A stretch of DNA of 39,199 nucleotides from an uncultured Sphingosinicella sp. (GTDB lineage Bacteria; Pseudomonadota; Alphaproteobacteria; Sphingomonadales; Sphingomonadaceae): NCBI RefSeq assembly GCF_902806315.1, contig NZ_CADCWD010000090.1, positions 1-39,199 of the forward strand. Direction: 5' to 3'. The translations under genes were made by a program, and so were the position numbers. Shown in pieces: positions 18,420 through 30,029 of the stretch. The notes beneath the pieces are model-generated. The model saw only the letters and a program-made list of their open reading frames with translations. It ran no database searches and was not told where the DNA came from. Within the stretch, counting starts at the first letter, position 1. Each line of letters opens with the position of its first letter.

Positions 18420-19593
18420 GTCATCTGAATCTAAAGTTCGCCGCATAATGTACGCTCTGTGGTTTGGCAAAAGCGCCTGACAGAGGCGAGGATTTCGTCG
18501 GCGGACTTCGTCCATCGGTATGGTTTCGGGTTTTCATTGTGCCGCTCGATGAAGGATCGGATGTCCTGCTCGAGCTGGCTGGTGGAGGTATGGACGCCTC
18601 GGCGCAGCTGCTTGCGGGTGAGTTCGGCAAACCAGCGCTCGACCTGGTTGATCCACGATGCCGAGGTCGGCGTGAAGTGGACATGATAGTGCGGCCGGCG
18701 GGCGAGCCAGGCCCGGACCAGAGCCGTTTTGTGGGTCGCGTAGTTATCCATGATAATGTGGACGTCGAGGTCTGGCGGCACCTGCGCGTCGATCTGCTTG
18801 AGGAAGTCCAAGAACTCGGCGGCGCGGTGCCGCTTGTAGCATTTGCCGATCACGAAGCCGGAAGCGATGTCGAGTGCCGCGAACAGCGAGGTCGTCCCAT
18901 GGCGGACGTAGCTGTGGGTGCGGCGCTCGGGCACGCCCGGCATCATCGGCAGGACCGGCTGCTCGCGATCAAGCGCCTGGATCTGGCTCTTCTCGTCGAC
19001 GCTGAGCACGAGCGCGCGATTAGGCGGTGAGAGATAGAGGCCGACAATGTCGCGCACCTTGTCGACGAACAGCGGGTCGCTGGACAGCTTGAACGTCTCC
19101 GACCGGTGCGGCTGCAGTCCGAAGGCCGTCCAGATCCGCCGGATCGTCGTATGCGAAAAGCCGGTCACACCCGCCATCGACCGGATTGACCAGTGGGTCG
19201 CATCAACCGGCTTCGAGCGCAGGGTCCGCTCGATCACCGCGGCGACCTGGTCATCCTCGATCGTCCTGGGCCGCCCCGGCCGCGCTTCATCCAGAAGCCC
19301 TTCGATACGATCCTTCAGAAAGCGCCGCCGCCACTTGCCGACGGTGTGCTCGTGCACGCCCAGCTCGGCAGCGACGACCTTGCTCTGGATGCCGTCAGCG
19401 CAGCGCAGGATGATCCGGCAACGCTCCGACATGGAACGCGCCACCCGTCGTCGGCGAACCTGCCGCTCCAAATACTCCCGCTCCTCCGGCTCTAGAACCA
19501 AAGGTGCCGTCGGCCGCCCGCCCGCGTTCGCCATGCTGCCCTCCCAGATATAAGGCACAGCATACAATGCGACTTACTTCGGTTCCAGACGAC
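18420..19593 (-). mobile_element. IS630 family insertion sequence, 1174 bp
   Basis: The element is bounded by TA on both sides (18418-18419 and 19594-19595), the target duplicated by IS630. The ends form an imperfect inverted repeat: left GTCATCTGAATCTAAAGT, right (complement) GTCGTCTGGAACCGAAGT. It contains one intact transposase gene. It sits 11 bp right of a REP-like palindrome. Confidence 0.85.
18431..19534 (-). CDS. IS630 family transposase
   Basis: The 367-residue protein starts at the ATG at 19534 with GGGAGG about 5 nt upstream. An N-terminal helix-turn-helix region (VVAAELGVHEHTVGKWRRRF) is followed by GLLDEARPGRPRTI and a DDE core: D in LVLSVDEKSQIQAL, D in VHIIMDNYATHKT, and E in SWINQVERWFAELTRKQ. 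All catalytic residues are present and the frame is unbroken, so it may be active. Length is normal for the IS630 family. Confidence 0.93.
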   Translation of the reverse strand: MANAGGRPTAPLVLEPEEREYLERQVRRRRVARSMSERCRIILRCADGIQSKVVAAELGVHEHTVGKWRRRFLKDRIEGLLDEARPGRPRTIEDDQVAAVIERTLRSKPVDATHWSIRSMAGVTGFSHTTIRRIWTAFGLQPHRSETFKLSSDPLFVDKVRDIVGLYLSPPNRALVLSVDEKSQIQALDREQPVLPMMPGVPERRTHSYVRHGTTSLFAALDIASGFVIGKCYKRHRAAEFLDFLKQIDAQVPPDLDVHIIMDNYATHKTALVRAWLARRPHYHVHFTPTSASWINQVERWFAELTRKQLRRGVHTSTSQLEQDIRSFIERHNENPKPYRWTKSADEILASVRRFCQTTERTLCGEL

Positions 19594-19596
19594 TAG

Positions 19597-20431
19597 GGTC
19601 GGGACTCATAACCACCATGTGACGGCGGCGGCGAGGTAGATTGCGCCGAGGAAGTTGGTGGCGAGCTTGTCGTAGCGGGTGGCGATGCGGCGGTAATCCT
19701 TGAGGCGGCAGAACATGCGCTCGACGGCGTTGCGCCCTTTGTAGAGGGTCTTGGAAAAGCAACTTTTCCAGCGTCGGTTGGCTTTGGACGGGATGTTCGG
19801 AACGGCGCCCTGGCGCTCGATCAGGTCGCGGATGGCGTTGCTGTCATAGGCTTTGTCGGCGAGCACGATGGTGCGCGGCGCGAGATCATCAAGCAGCACA
19901 TCGGCGGCGCGACAGTCGGCGACCTGGCCGCCGGTCAGCAGGAAGCGGAGCGGCCGGCCTTCGCCGTCGGTGAGCGCGTGGAGCTTGCTGTTGCGGCCGC
20001 CCCGGCTGATCCCGATCGCCTGGCGGAGCGCCCCCCTTTTCCGCCGCCCGCCGAGCGGTGCGCCTTCATGTGAGTGCTGTCGATCAGAACCTCGGCCGGC
20101 GGTCCGCCGGCTGCCGCAAGGGTCACGAACAGCTCCTGCCAGATGCCCTTCTCCGCCCACCGCACAAACCGGTTGTATAGCGTCTTCCTCGGTCCATAGC
20201 AGGCCGGCGCATCGACCCAGCGCCCGCCCGACTTCACGACATGGATGATCCCGCTGATCACCCGCCGGTCATCGACCCGGGCGACCCCGCGCACCTTGTC
20301 CGGCAGCATCGGCCGAAGCCGCTCAAACTGCGCCTCACTCAACCAGAACTCGCTCAAATCCATGCTCCCGCTGTCGCGGAGCCTGAATCACATCCCAGCC
20401 GCTATGGGAATCCCGTTTATAGGTCTCGACC
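19597..20431 (-). mobile_element. IS5 family (IS427 group) insertion sequence, 835 bp
   Basis: CTAG is duplicated at both sides (19593-19596 and 20432-20435). The ends match as an imperfect inverted repeat: left GGTCGGGACTCATAACC, right (complement) GGTCGAGACCTATAAAC. The left CTAG is made from the last base of IS630 plus its TA target, so this element landed exactly on the right border of the IS630 copy and is the younger insertion. Confidence 0.85.
19606..20363 (-). CDS. IS5/IS427-type transposase made by programmed frameshift
   Basis: The first frame starts MDLSEFWLSEAQFERLRPML at 20363 and includes the first catalytic Asp in AEVLIDSTHMKAHRS. It runs on out of phase to a stop at 19935. 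The second frame carries the rest: SRGGRNSKLHALTDGEGRPL, D in IVLADKAYDS and E in RNAVERMFCRLKDYRR, stopping at 19606. The overlap contains A4G6 on the minus strand (20040-20031), the slippery run typical of this group. A fused DDE transposase is therefore expected after ribosomal frameshifting; no decay is seen. Confidence 0.88.
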
Positions 20432-22909: not shown

Positions 22910-24574
22910 ATGGCGCGTATCGAAGGCACTTCCTCGAATGACACCTTGTTCGGGTTTGACGATCAGAATGATGAGCTCTTCGGTTTGGACGGCAATGACG
23001 TGCTTGACGGCCGTTCGGGAGCGGATCGAATGGTCGGCGGGACTGGCAACGAAACCTACGTTGTCGACGATCAGAATGACGAGGTTGTTGAATTCGCTGG
23101 CGAGGGTTTCGACGCGGTCTCGACAAAATTGCGCTTCTACAGGCTCGGGGACCATCTTGAGGCGCTCGTTTACACTGGAACGTTTGGCTTTGAGGGGCTC
23201 GGCAACGGTCTTGATAATGAGATCAGAGGCGGCGAACAGAACGACATTCTCCGAGGCTTCGGCGGCGCTGATACGCTGATCGGGAATGCCGGCGACGACC
23301 TGCTTGACGGCGGCGAAGGAGATGACCAGCTGGCCGGCGGCGCGGGGGACGACATTTTCTTCCTTCAGCACGTCGGTGATGACCTGGCCTTCGGTGGCGC
23401 TGGGAACGACGGCTTTTACCTTGGCGCGGCATTTACGGCCGCTGACATTCTCGATGGTGGCGAGGGCGCGCTAGATCAGGTCGCTTTGCAGGGAGGCTAT
23501 TCTGGCCTTACCTTTGCCGCCGGCAGTTTGGTCGGCGTCGAACAGCTTGTGCTGCTGCCAGGTTCCGACGCTCGCTTTGGCGACACGTCGGGTGCGCTCT
23601 ACAGCTATAATCTGACCACGGTCGACGCGAACGTAGCGGCAGGGAAGCAGCTTATCGTTACGTCCAACACGCTGCGGGTCGGCGAGGATCTGACGCTTAA
23701 TGGCTCGGCTGAAACCGACGGCTCGTTCCTGACCTTTGGTGGCAAGGGCGTTGACCAGATTACTGGTGGTCAGGGCTCCGACGGTTTCTTCTTCGGCATC
23801 GACAAGCGCTTTGGCGATCAGGATGCGATCGATGGTCAGGGCGGCAGCGACCAGGTCGGACTGCAGGGCGACTATTCGGGCGCGAACAAAATCGTGTTTG
23901 GTGAAGCTCAGCTCAAGAATGTTGAATTCATCGTTGCCCTGACCGGCGGCGACGCTCGCTTTGGCAACAATGGCCTGGGCTACAGCTACGATCTTACCAC
24001 CAGCGACGGCAACGTGGCGAGCGGCGCAAACATGATTGTGAGCGCCAACACGCTGCGTTCGGACGAGACTTTGACCTTCAACGGCTCCGCTGAAACCGAC
24101 GGGCGTTTTCAGATCTTCAGCGGCGCGGGTGCGGACAGGATCACGGGTGGATCGGGTGCTGATAGGATCAGCGGCGGGCGCGGGGCGGATGTGCTGAGGG
24201 GCGGCGATGGCGCAGATGTGTTCATCTACACCTCGGTTGCGGACTCGACGAGCACCGCCTTTGATCAGATTGTCGGCTTTGACTACACGGCGGACAAGAT
24301 CGATCTGCCCACCACTGTCGGCAACTTCTCCGATGCGGTCGAGGGCAGCCTTAGCCTGTCCACCTTCAACGCTGATCTGACAGCGGCTCTGAATGGCGTG
24401 CTGGGGATTGGCGAGGCGGCGGCTTTTCAAGCGACCAGCGGCGACATGGCTGGGCGAATCTTCGGCATTGTTGATGCAAATGGCATCGCGGGCTACCAGG
24501 CGGGCGAGGACTTCGTTATTGAATTCGTCACGCCTTTAACCGCCCCAGACCCCACCATCGACTTCCTGATCTGA
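22910..24574 (+). CDS. RTX-type calcium-binding protein with duplicated module
   Basis: The 554-residue protein starts at the ATG at 22910 with AGGAG 6 nt upstream. It has no N-terminal signal. Gly/Asp nonapeptide repeats (GLDGNDVLDG, GNAGDDLLDGGEGDDQLAGGAGDD, GGSGADRISGGRGADVLRGGDGADVF) bind calcium. Two similar modules at about residues 187-294 and 312-417 share the pattern DQVxLQGxYSG, DARFG, YSYxLTT and TLxxNGSAETDG. The C-terminus has a hydrophobic, acidic tail (DANGIAGYQAGEDFVIEF) as in substrates of type I secretion. No type I transporter is in the window. The gene reads less GC-rich than the core genes. Confidence 0.88.
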   Translation: MARIEGTSSNDTLFGFDDQNDELFGLDGNDVLDGRSGADRMVGGTGNETYVVDDQNDEVVEFAGEGFDAVSTKLRFYRLGDHLEALVYTGTFGFEGLGNGLDNEIRGGEQNDILRGFGGADTLIGNAGDDLLDGGEGDDQLAGGAGDDIFFLQHVGDDLAFGGAGNDGFYLGAAFTAADILDGGEGALDQVALQGGYSGLTFAAGSLVGVEQLVLLPGSDARFGDTSGALYSYNLTTVDANVAAGKQLIVTSNTLRVGEDLTLNGSAETDGSFLTFGGKGVDQITGGQGSDGFFFGIDKRFGDQDAIDGQGGSDQVGLQGDYSGANKIVFGEAQLKNVEFIVALTGGDARFGNNGLGYSYDLTTSDGNVASGANMIVSANTLRSDETLTFNGSAETDGRFQIFSGAGADRITGGSGADRISGGRGADVLRGGDGADVFIYTSVADSTSTAFDQIVGFDYTADKIDLPTTVGNFSDAVEGSLSLSTFNADLTAALNGVLGIGEAAAFQATSGDMAGRIFGIVDANGIAGYQAGEDFVIEFVTPLTAPDPTIDFLI

Positions 24575-24698: not shown

Positions 24699-24842
24699 AT
24701 GAATTCGAATGTTTGCGTACGCGGTTCCGAGACCAAGCAATCGTGGGTAAAGCCGATGCTGCAGCGACTGGACGCAGGAAGTGCCGAGGTGGGCCCTAAT
24801 GCGCAGAGGCCAGAAGGACAGTTCGCATCGGGTGCGTCGTAA
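24699..24842 (+). CDS. 47-residue RiPP precursor candidate, lasso-peptide-like
   Basis: The ATG at 24699 opens a 47-residue frame ending TAA at 24840-24842. AGGAG is 11 nt upstream, a little far. The leader part contains W16-V-K-P19-M-L21, then G27 in DAGSAE, which resembles the lasso leader signature Y-x2-P-x-L-x(n)-G with W in place of Y. The last 16 residues, GPNAQRPEGQFASGAS, start with Gly and have Glu at position 8, as needed for a Gly1-Glu8 macrolactam ring. The usual Thr at position -2 is missing (Glu there). It lies 36 bp upstream of an asparagine-synthetase-like gene on the same strand. Precursor identity is inferred from size, motif and neighbour together. Confidence 0.6.
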   Translation: MNSNVCVRGSETKQSWVKPMLQRLDAGSAEVGPNAQRPEGQFASGAS

Positions 24843-24878
24843 CCTACCGAGCTGAGTTCGGCTTAGCAGGCTAGCCTT

Positions 24879-26762
24879 TTGACAGCGCTAGCAGGTTACT
24901 TGGGTCAGTCTGCGGGAGAGGACCGGCCCCGCGTTGCGGCTATGCTCGATGCGCAGGCCGCCTTCGGCCGGGAAGCTGCGGCATACCAGTCGGTGAATCG
25001 GGTCACATTCGGACGACGGCTGACGCGCGTACTTCCGGAAGACGATTTCGACGAGGGGCCACTGCTTGGAGGTAGCGGCTCCCTCCTGCTCACTGCTGAC
25101 GTTCGGCTCGACAATCGCGATGAACTGCGTCATGATCTGAGGCTTGCTGCCGAATGCAGAGAGATGAGCGACAGCGCACTGTTGCTTCGGGCTTGGGAAC
25201 GTTGGCGCGACGCGGCATTAGATAGGCTCTCGGGAGCCTTTGCATTCGCGATTTGGGACAACTCTGCGGGTGCTTTACTGCTTGTGCGAGACCCGCAGGG
25301 CCAAAAACCGCTTCACTATCATCTGGGTAGGAGCTTCTCGGCTTTTGCGTCGATGCCGCGGGGTATTCATGCCCTTTCGACTGCGCCGCGCCGGCCAAAC
25401 TTGCAAACGCTAGCACGTTTCATCGATCTTGCTCCACCTGCGCCCGCAGCGACCTTCTTTGCGGGCGTGGATCAAGTTGCGCCCGGGCACCTCGTGAGAA
25501 TTCGTCGCGGAGAGGTCCAGATCAGCCGCTATTGGAGACCGTCATTTGAGCCGATCAGGCTGCGGGACACCGCCGAGTATGTCGAGGCCGTTCGTGAGCG
25601 CCTGGACATTGCTGTGCGTGCCTGTCTGCGTGGGACGAACGGCCTCGTTGGTTCGCATCTCAGCGCCGGTCTCGACAGCAGCGGTGTCACGGCGACGGCG
25701 GCTCGCATGGTCGGGGCTGGCGAAATCGTCGGCTTTACGGCCGTGCCCGCGCCAAGTTTTATTCAAAAATTCAAAACTCAGGACATCGTAGATGAAGGCC
25801 CATTGGCGGCAGAGACCGCGGGTCTTTATTCGAATATCCGGCATATGCTTATCCAGACCGAGGCGACTCCGCTGGACTCGCTTGAAGATGGTCCCGCCTG
25901 GTTCGACCATCCTGTTCCCAATCCGTGCAACCACCGCTGGGCAAGAGCTATCCTGAATGAGGCGCGGTCGAACGGCTTACCTGTGATGCTGACTGGGCAG
26001 ATGGGAAATCTAAGCCTCAGTCACGACGGCGGCGATTTGCTCCCGAATCTACTTCGATCAGGGCGCTTTATGAGGCTTGCACAGGAAGCGCGGGCATTAC
26101 GACGCGAAGGCACGGGGATTCGCCCACTGGCGTCCGCAATGATCGGACCGTTCGTGCCTCCCGCCGCGTGGCGTGCGCTTGCGCGGACGCTTCGAAAACC
26201 GCATCGGCAATCTGATTTCAGTCTATCGCGTCCAAATCTGTGGTCAGATGGCGATCGCGGGCGGAGATATGGGCAGCAGCCCGTTTTCGACATGGTCGCG
26301 CCGCGAATGGCAATGCTCGAGCAGTTGGATTTTGGCCTTTTCAACAGCGGCATCTTAGCGGGGTGGGGTATCGATATGCGCGACCCCACCGGGGACCGAC
26401 GCCTAATCGAGCTCTGCTTGCGAATACCCGCAGACCAATTTTTGCAGAACGGCGAGCGCCGCGCAATCGCCCGGCGTGTGCTGAGCGACCGCTTGCCAGC
26501 TGCCGTCCTACATGAGCGTCGTCGCGGCAGGCAGTCCGCGGATTGGCACTTATTTTTGGATGCCTCGAAGCCGCGCATTGAGCATGAAGTGAGTCTCGTT
26601 GCGAGCGACCCGATCCTTATAGACCTTATCGACACAGGACGACTTCGCAAACTTGTGGAAAACTGGCCAAGGCACTGGGACGGCAGCGTGCAGCAGGAAT
26701 TCCTTTACCGGCGCGCACTCCTCCGGGCCTTATCTGCCGCTCGATTTGTGAACTCGTTTTGA
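24879..26762 (+). CDS. Asparagine synthetase-like protein, probable lasso peptide cyclase
   Basis: The 627-residue protein has an N-terminal glutaminase-like domain (about 1-190; DVRLDNRDELRHDL and LSGAFAFAIWDNSAGALLLVRDP) and a C-terminal synthetase domain with PP-loop SAGLDSS (262-268). The start is TTG at 24879 with AGG 8 nt upstream. The N-terminus reads (M)TALAGYLG where active AsnB enzymes have MCGIAGxxG, so the nucleophile Cys is absent and glutamine hydrolysis is unlikely. That state is normal for lasso cyclases (McjC type), which adenylate a side-chain carboxylate of the precursor. The small gene directly upstream supports this. No B protein (leader peptidase) or ABC exporter follows. 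A plain AsnB relative with another acceptor remains possible. Confidence 0.8.
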   Translation: MTALAGYLGQSAGEDRPRVAAMLDAQAAFGREAAAYQSVNRVTFGRRLTRVLPEDDFDEGPLLGGSGSLLLTADVRLDNRDELRHDLRLAAECREMSDSALLLRAWERWRDAALDRLSGAFAFAIWDNSAGALLLVRDPQGQKPLHYHLGRSFSAFASMPRGIHALSTAPRRPNLQTLARFIDLAPPAPAATFFAGVDQVAPGHLVRIRRGEVQISRYWRPSFEPIRLRDTAEYVEAVRERLDIAVRACLRGTNGLVGSHLSAGLDSSGVTATAARMVGAGEIVGFTAVPAPSFIQKFKTQDIVDEGPLAAETAGLYSNIRHMLIQTEATPLDSLEDGPAWFDHPVPNPCNHRWARAILNEARSNGLPVMLTGQMGNLSLSHDGGDLLPNLLRSGRFMRLAQEARALRREGTGIRPLASAMIGPFVPPAAWRALARTLRKPHRQSDFSLSRPNLWSDGDRGRRYGQQPVFDMVAPRMAMLEQLDFGLFNSGILAGWGIDMRDPTGDRRLIELCLRIPADQFLQNGERRAIARRVLSDRLPAAVLHERRRGRQSADWHLFLDASKPRIEHEVSLVASDPILIDLIDTGRLRKLVENWPRHWDGSVQQEFLYRRALLRALSAARFVNSF

Positions 26763-28967: not shown

Positions 28968-30029
28968 ATGGTTGCTTGGGATTTCGAGGTAGACATGGCC
29001 GACCTTTCGCGAACCCAGCTCCGGGCCGCGCCGCCGCCTGCGTCTGTCGAGCTCGCGCCCGGCGAAGTCCTGCTCGGGGTCGAACGCTTCTCCCTCACCG
29101 CCAACAACATCACCTATGGGGTGATCGGCGTTCAGCTCAGCTACTGGCGGTTCTTCCCCACCTCGGACGGCTGGGGACGCTTACCCGTCTGGGGCTTCGC
29201 GCAGGTGGTGAGGTCGCGCGCCGAGAGGGTCCCCGAAGGGCTGCGGCTGTATGGCTACTATCCGATGTCGACCCACCTGGTTGCGAGCCTACGGCCGGAT
29301 GCCGGCGGCTATGTCGACGAAGCGCCTCATCGTGCCGGCCTCGCCGCAGTGTACAATCGCTATATGGAGGCCTCGGAGACCCCGCACGACGATCACATCG
29401 CGCTTCTCCGGCCGCTCTTCGCAACCTCGTTTCTGCTGGATGACTATCTGGGTGAAGTGGCCCCCGGTGCGACCGTGCTGGTGTCGAGCGCTTCCAGCAA
29501 AACCGCTCTGGGGCTGGCGTGGCAGCTCGCCCAACGAGGGGTGCAAGTCGTCGGCCTCACGTCGGAGCAGAACCTGCCCTTCCTGAAAGGCCTGAACTTC
29601 TTTGAACCGGCGGCGCTTTACGATGACGTGAGCTCGCTCGACGTTAGCGGCCACGTGGTGTTCGTGAACGTCGCAGGAAATGCCAGCGTCCGCTCGGCCG
29701 TGCATGAGCGGTTTAACGAACGTCTCATCCACAGCGCCGTCGTCGGCGGAACACACCACCAAGCCAGGGATACGAATGCGAGTGGCGATCTTCCGGGGCC
29801 CAAGCCGCAGTTCTTCTTCGCACCAGATCGATTTGCGAAGCGGAGTGCCGACTGGGGGCCTGCCGAGCTGAACGCGCGAATACGCGAGGCAATGTCCCGA
29901 TTCATCGATACCAGCTCTTGGCTGAAAATTGAACGCCATCATGGCCCCGACGCGCTGGCGCTTCTGTATCGAACCGTGCTGCAAGGGTCAGCCAGTCCCG
30001 CAATTGGTGACGTCGTGTACCCTCGCTGA
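28968..30029 (+). CDS. DUF2855 family protein
   Basis: The 353-residue protein starts at the ATG at 28968 with GAGGAGG about 7 nt upstream. It has features of the DUF2855 family, a relative of the zinc-free MDR reductases: GEVLLGVERFSLTANNITYGVIG near residues 32-54, LPVWGFAQVVRSRA, RLYGYYPMSTHLV, and VLVSSASSKTALGLAWQLAQRG as a nucleotide-binding-like turn. The reaction is unknown. It stands alone between Hsp70 and small genes and looks intact. Confidence 0.85.
   Translation: MVAWDFEVDMADLSRTQLRAAPPPASVELAPGEVLLGVERFSLTANNITYGVIGVQLSYWRFFPTSDGWGRLPVWGFAQVVRSRAERVPEGLRLYGYYPMSTHLVASLRPDAGGYVDEAPHRAGLAAVYNRYMEASETPHDDHIALLRPLFATSFLLDDYLGEVAPGATVLVSSASSKTALGLAWQLAQRGVQVVGLTSEQNLPFLKGLNFFEPAALYDDVSSLDVSGHVVFVNVAGNASVRSAVHERFNERLIHSAVVGGTHHQARDTNASGDLPGPKPQFFFAPDRFAKRSADWGPAELNARIREAMSRFIDTSSWLKIERHHGPDALALLYRTVLQGSASPAIGDVVYPR

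Follow-up and report, generated by a model that had tools for sequence, protein, structure and literature searches.

Genes at the locus

The window, i.e. the whole stretch of DNA analysed here (39 199 nucleotides), is the complete contig C90 of a 2.69-Mb genome from an uncultured Sphingosinicella sp. that has been assembled into 97 contigs (95.78% complete, 2.12% contamination). On its forward strand, a 47-aa frame with an ATG start (positions 24699–24842), which encodes the peptide MNSNVCVRGSETKQSWVKPMLQRLDAGSAEVGPNAQRPEGQFASGAS, is followed after 36 bp by a 627-aa frame that starts with TTG (24879–26762). The initial annotation had described a 47-residue frame 36 bp before an asparagine-synthetase-like gene, and both frames are indeed there, with the same coordinates and spacing. 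A gene for a 554-aa RTX (hemolysin-type Ca-binding repeat) protein on the same strand (22910–24574; Pfam HemolysinCabind, E = 6.6e-26) stops 124 bp ahead of the small frame. This gene had been missed at first and forms part of the finding.

The three genes have a G + C content of 58–60% as against 66% in 13 sampled stretches of the same genome (20 were fetched, of which 7 short ones were left unused). Two IS transposase genes (18431–20363; DDE_3/HTH and DDE_Tnp_1) lie 2.5–4.5 kb upstream of the RTX gene. IS matches were found at the ends of contigs C95 (100% over 127 bp) and C30 (95%), and the C95 match indicates that the window contig belongs to this genome. Around the 24699–26762 pair there are two terminator-like sites (shuffle mean 4.8) and three promoter-like sites (shuffle mean 1.5). 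Elsewhere on the contig, a DUF2855 protein (28968–30029) has a 61% paralog on contig C17; a search of 25 other genomes of the genus gave no match to it.

The cyclase

The product of the 24879–26762 gene, a lasso macrolactam synthetase (C) by its best match, carries the Pfam domains Asn_synthase and GATase_7. Among the NCBIfam models, the lasso cyclase model NF033535 fits this product best (E = 7.3e-74; 249.5 bits, under the 525-bit cut-off of that model), with the asparagine synthase model TIGR01536 (151.6 bits) behind it; an AsnB-like cyclase of the lasso type is therefore present by best match below the cut-off. Cys2 of the glutaminase domain is catalytic in glutamine-using asparagine synthetases. 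This residue, a feature of asparagine synthetase B, is absent from the window cyclase, which has Thr at position 2, as do the four relatives aligned with it.

The cyclase retains all 27 columns that are invariant in 42 other cyclases and 59 of the 60 near-invariant ones, and is thus no visible pseudogene; its 627 codons contain no stop, and its identity to its nearest kin is ∼ 42–44%. In the cyclase tree, where its placement is weakly supported, its end branch is long (0.86 versus a median of 0.34), and its third-position GC is low (0.62); both features are compatible with relaxed selection. A viral collection contained only distant cyclases (21–26% identity).

The precursor and its leader

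The 47-aa frame has no Pfam or NCBIfam match at E ≤ 0.1. With a leave-one-out profile of 20 related precursors, from which the window's own copy was excluded, it nevertheless ranked first among the 1063 frames of the window (E = 1.5e-11; runner-up 0.45), and a profile that included the window row found it to be the sole convincing copy in its own genome (E = 1.8e-13; next 0.26). The W-x2-P-x-L leader that had been read in this frame is there as W-V-K-P-M-L (24744–24761, with W at position −16 on the predicted parse), so that the [YW]-x2-P-x-[LV] motif is present, in a frame that the leave-one-out profile places beyond chance. A second motif, A-G-S-A-E (24774–24788), has its Glu at the predicted position −2.

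Both motifs, as W-x2-P-x-[LV] and A-G-x-A-E, are common to the relatives. Small frames of like design stand beside the three close cyclases of loci L038 (KPWTRPRVTRMRAGEAELGATPVKPEGPFAFGS), L039 (MPWTPPRVARIDAGQAEIGTRATGDGAFTTS) and L051 (KVWTAPQVVKIRAGDAELGANPVIPEGQFGKGS), and precursor-type frames were also seen near many of the best 80 of 240 cyclase relatives (see below). In an alignment of 21 precursors, chosen by eye with duplicates and dissimilar frames omitted (as was L089, which has a similar motif), W and P of the first motif and the second Ala and the Glu of A-G-x-A-E are invariant, whereas the first Ala and the Gly are nearly so. Thus, a conserved small frame with the W-x2-P-x-L/AGxAE pattern does accompany close cyclase homologs, the point on which the initial annotation had proposed that its reading should be checked and might fail. 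Two precursor-like frames beside more distant cyclases (L050 and L057) combine W-x2-P with a G-x-D-G tail.

Thr(−2) is the usual penultimate leader residue of lasso precursors (PMC7549694, in the part consulted). Its replacement by Glu, noted earlier for the window, proved to be widespread: the window precursor has Glu and not Thr in this column, and Glu stands there in 23 of 25 precursors, so that Glu(−2) is a trait of the family and not damage. The 25 precursors were those selected by a leader-only profile (E ≤ 1e-3; trained on the rows of the 21-precursor alignment), with duplicate loci and identical copies dropped. Since Ile and Val at −2 are described, and Ala(−2) is mentioned, for other lasso precursors in the part of PMC10368454 consulted, Thr(−2) is not an absolute criterion. 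The AGxAE leader is what is new in this pair, a variant of the lasso peptide theme, and the family may escape search rules that rely on Thr(−2). An easy signature would be A-G-x-A-E, an acid 8–9 residues further on, and a terminal Ser.

The predicted core peptide

The predicted core GPNAQRPEGQFASGAS (24792–24839, forward strand) agrees with the 16-residue tail that had been proposed, with Gly first and Glu at position 8, and ends in Ser. The acid spacing suggests a Gly1–Glu8 ring, for which the computed [M+H]+ after loss of water is 1555.725. Among the 25 leader-selected precursors, an Asp or Glu follows the Glu of AGxAE at a distance of 8 or 9 residues in 24 (the best of 2000 shuffles gave 14) and all 25 end in Ser; Gly at the predicted core position 1 is found in only 12 by our count. 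A looser leader-only selection (E ≤ 0.05) gave an acid at 8 or 9 in 26 of 29 cases, the exceptions being L116, L054 and L057. An earlier set of 31 rows had given 30/31, but it was hand-picked, and we rely on the leader-only count for this reason; that set omitted L116, L099 and L062, with acids at 10, 10 and 11 by hand count, and also L075, L091, L064 and L067, which have the acid at 8 or 9.

Lasso rings close on residues 7–9 (PMC9266682, in the part consulted), and the window precursor has an acid in this range, namely E8 on the predicted parse. The parse is supported by the precursors of L101, L105 and L109 (loci of Blastomonas and Ferrovibrio), in which, by ungapped count from W, Thr stands in the Glu column; these precursors fall below the threshold of the leader-only profile. 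If their Thr is the usual Thr(−2), the window core would start at Gly32 and its acid would be residue 8, with Glu at −2. On the same Gly1-type parse, relatives with the acid at +8 would have 7-residue rings. One L105 precursor has no acid at 8 or 9 and has acids at 7 and 10 instead. Moving the start back by one residue (Val1, Ala(−2), ring of 9; computed [M+H]+ 1654.793) would also fit the 7–9 range, but the T(−2) relatives make this the less likely choice. A core start inside AGxAE was rejected, as the acid Glu38 would fall at position 10 or later. Cleavage site, ring and threading are all predictions.

Distribution and gene neighbourhoods of the relatives

Cyclase relatives (E ≤ 1e-30) were found in 45 of 298 genomes of the bacterial family, including that of the window. 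A scan of 84 980 species, one genome each, with an alignment of five cyclases yielded the 240 relatives mentioned above; only the 80 best were carried forward. Iterated profiles of the B1, B2, kinase, nucleotidyltransferase, ABC and RTX proteins were derived from the relatives. With these locally built profiles, 34 close-cyclase neighbourhoods were found to encode B1 in 31 cases, B2 in 26, the kinase in 30 and the nucleotidyltransferase in 15. The 34 loci (deduplicated, window included) had cyclase scores of at least 330 bits and at least 5 kb of sequence upstream and 7 kb downstream of the match start; the counts leave out ten further close-cyclase loci for which the available sequence did not reach this length. 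The only two neighbourhoods with neither B gene were the window and L074. The kinase of L038 scored 20 bits against Hpr_kinase_C, below the cut-off of 33.3. At L091, a single 788-aa frame (−57 to 2309 relative to the cyclase match) matches the B2 profile as well as that of the cyclase and is a possible cyclase–B2 fusion.

Taken together, these data lead us to regard 24699–26762, with a probability of about 0.8, as a genuine lasso-type precursor/cyclase (A + C) pair that belongs to a sphingomonad-centred AGxAE family and lies behind an RTX gene in DNA of lower G + C content. In the route that we propose, B1, the RRE protein, would bind the W-x2-P-x-L leader and the B2 peptidase would cut after A-G-S-A-E-V, with Glu(−2) standing in for Thr(−2). 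The cyclase, with ATP, would then activate the side chain of Glu8 and join it to the amine of Gly1, and the product would be a threaded 16-residue peptide with Ser at its end. Among the points against this reading is that no B1 or B2 was found, so that the route to the product is only a proposed one.

Partner genes missing from the assembly

The B protein and ABC exporter had been reported as absent from the locus, and the locally built profiles indeed detected neither B1 nor B2 on the 39-kb contig, nor any kinase, nucleotidyltransferase or ABC exporter there (best match, E = 0.12). Since the window is a whole contig, the absence of B1 and B2 is not an effect of where the window was cut. A tblastn search of the contig returned the window cyclase itself (E = 1.6e-99, with the 788-aa L091 frame that holds cyclase and B2 as the query) and eight other matches, short and scattered (E = 0.002–0.046), with no convincing decayed pieces of B1, B2, kinase (K) or nucleotidyltransferase (N) genes.

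The whole-genome search for lasso B1 and B2 suggested in the initial annotation gave the same result: the two genes expected of a complete lasso cluster, for the RRE protein and the peptidase, were not found in the 95.78%-complete assembly. PF13471 (E ≤ 0.001) and PF05402 (E ≤ 10) had no match in it, and NF033537 had one partial match (15.7 bits) on contig C33. The corresponding B2 candidate, a 158-aa frame, was rejected because it is overlapped, in a different reading frame, by a 325-aa open frame whose motifs suggest a beta-lactamase-type serine hydrolase. By comparison, NF033537 and PF05402 (the latter also covers true PqqD) had matches over their cut-offs in nine of the ten genomes of a first set, the exception being that of the window, and in all four genomes of a second set; as the sets share one genome, both B families are present in 12 of 12 other genomes with such cyclases. 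Thus, the window pair either needs partners in trans or has lost them recently. The three possibilities first raised, a minimal or diverged system, one served in trans and a decayed locus, have fared differently: the cyclase shows no decay and a B-free system is unlikely, whereas supply in trans and recent loss are not separated by these data.

A stranded remnant, i.e. a pair that came with a mobile island or was left over from a deletion, with its B genes gone and no peptide made, has in our estimate somewhat less than an even chance. It would account for the two IS transposase genes upstream of the RTX gene, the lower G + C content, the lack of any B1 or B2 family match over the cut-off in the assembly and the long end branch of the cyclase, and for the observation that six genomes of the same genus contain no cyclase at E ≤ 1e-30. 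On the other hand, a cyclase that has kept its invariant and near-invariant residues and an open frame, at such a distance from its nearest kin, speaks against a leftover, and the contig showed no trace of decayed B1, B2, K or N genes.

Supply in trans, with B1 and B2 on a plasmid or island that is missing from the 97-contig assembly, is likewise plausible, if a little short of probable. In addition to the 12/12 count, it is favoured by five of these 12 genomes (G205, G289, G317, G318 and G319), each of which holds at least one cyclase without adjoining B1 and B2. The cyclases with neither gene in the surrounding stretch are L051 in G205, L041 and L044 in G289, L074 in G317, L073 in G318 and L100 in G319; the last four of the five genomes made up the second set, for which they had been chosen on account of these cyclases. 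At L051, the A and C genes have no B gene within 8–10 kb on each side, and B is found elsewhere in the genome. The incompleteness of the assembly and the IS matches at contig ends also favour this explanation, although only ∼ 4% of the marker genes are missing and both B genes would have to fit into that small gap. The window copy offers a naturally occurring example of a cyclase that is intact but separated from its protease.

A minimal system without B proteins, relying on a host protease for leader removal, agrees with nothing beyond the absence of B1 and B2 and appears highly improbable, because both genes were present in each of the 12 other genomes examined and the leader motifs read by B1 have been retained here. 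That the cyclase is a plain asparagine synthetase, the other outcome named in advance as damaging to the lasso reading, and that the small frame arose by chance can hardly be maintained on the strength of the Asn_synthase domain, given the lasso model as best match, the Thr in place of Cys2, the leave-one-out profile match with its conserved precursors and the lasso-type neighbours of the relatives.

The RTX gene and its association with AGxAE precursors

The RTX protein of the window belongs, as a small member, to a subfamily with relatives encoded next to lasso precursors; the repeat domain of the window protein is 44–51% identical to the RTX proteins of L038, L039 and L051. Of the 298 family genomes, in each of which up to eight first-look candidates were scored, this repeat-domain subfamily (E ≤ 1e-15) occurs in only four, namely that of the window and G204, G205 and G268. 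L039 lies in G204, L051 in G205 and L038 in G268, and all three of these genomes have AGxAE precursors.

An RTX gene stands directly before the precursor on the same strand at six loci: the window (gap of 124 bp), L038 (−4 bp), L039 (60 and 60 bp), L069 of Sphingomonas albertensis (22 bp), L094 (27 bp) and L107 of S. aurantiaca (35 bp). In total, 13 of 44 close-cyclase loci have an RTX gene (window included; L063 is a weak match), compared with 2 of 52 more distant ones (one of them weak); the weak matches are L048 (E = 2e-7) and L063 (E = 9e-5). At L051, L059 and L060 the RTX gene is nearby but off the strand of the precursor, at L071 and L081 it is 5–6 kb upstream, and at L084 it is ∼ 8 kb away. 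Many AGxAE loci have no RTX gene in the stretch around them, and seven RTX matches in G204 and G205 (L142, L143, L145, L147, L150, L153 and L154) have no precursor within ∼ 1.5 kb. L039 also has genes for a set of ABC, HlyD and OEP proteins as found in type I secretion. In its genome, two identical precursors occur in RTX–precursor units near one lasso enzyme set, and a third RTX–precursor pair, with a near-identical precursor, is found at L148.

Mapped on the cyclase tree, the presence of an RTX gene requires 10 changes, at least 7 of them forced, as compared with a shuffled mean of 13.1 (11 of 500 shuffles were as low). The RTX label therefore clusters only moderately, and the partnership either has come and gone several times or travels with exchanged DNA. 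A full-text literature search found no paper on a lasso peptide–RTX partnership, as judged by title or abstract. We suggest, tentatively, that the lasso peptide works in partnership with an RTX protein exported by type I secretion, with precursor and RTX gene co-transcribed, kept and multiplied together, and combined with different cyclases. The peptide may act with or on the secreted RTX protein, e.g. by serving as its ligand or cap or as a signal that is secreted with it. The RTX link, whose function is putative, is what interests us most at this locus, and the gene partnership could be followed experimentally for clues to the benefit that producers draw from some lasso peptides.

Comparison with known lasso systems

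Among the closest counterparts of the AGxAE family are the phosphorylated lasso clusters of the paeninodin and pseudomycoidin kind. Like these, the relatives of the window carry A, K, B1, C and B2 genes, often with N, and the AGxAE cores end in Ser; PadeK phosphorylates the terminal Ser (PMC9266682, in the part consulted). The family differs from them in having Glu instead of Thr at the predicted position −2, in having Trp at −16 where they have Tyr at −17, and in the RTX gene that accompanies part of its members. Of the features of this subgroup, the window has the C-terminal Ser and has no HPr-kinase-like K on its contig; unlike the paeninodin and pseudomycoidin clusters, which have separate B1 and B2, a kinase and a nucleotidyltransferase, the contig is without K, N, B1 and B2.

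According to the part of PMC10368454 consulted, BsfA-type precursors have Ile or Val at −2, belong to clusters with a kinase and occur in Bradymonadales, Acidobacteriaceae and Sphingomonadales. The AGxAE family resembles them in its non-Thr penultimate residue, in its kinase clusters and, in part, in the bacterial orders concerned, and differs in the charged Glu within A-G-x-A-E, although the Sphingomonadales examples of that study may overlap with ours. Among solved structures, the sequence relatives of the window cyclase are asparagine synthetase B (1ct9) and the hydroxyamidotransferase 7ylz, and it differs from both in its lack of Cys2 and in having a lasso cyclase as its best NCBIfam model.
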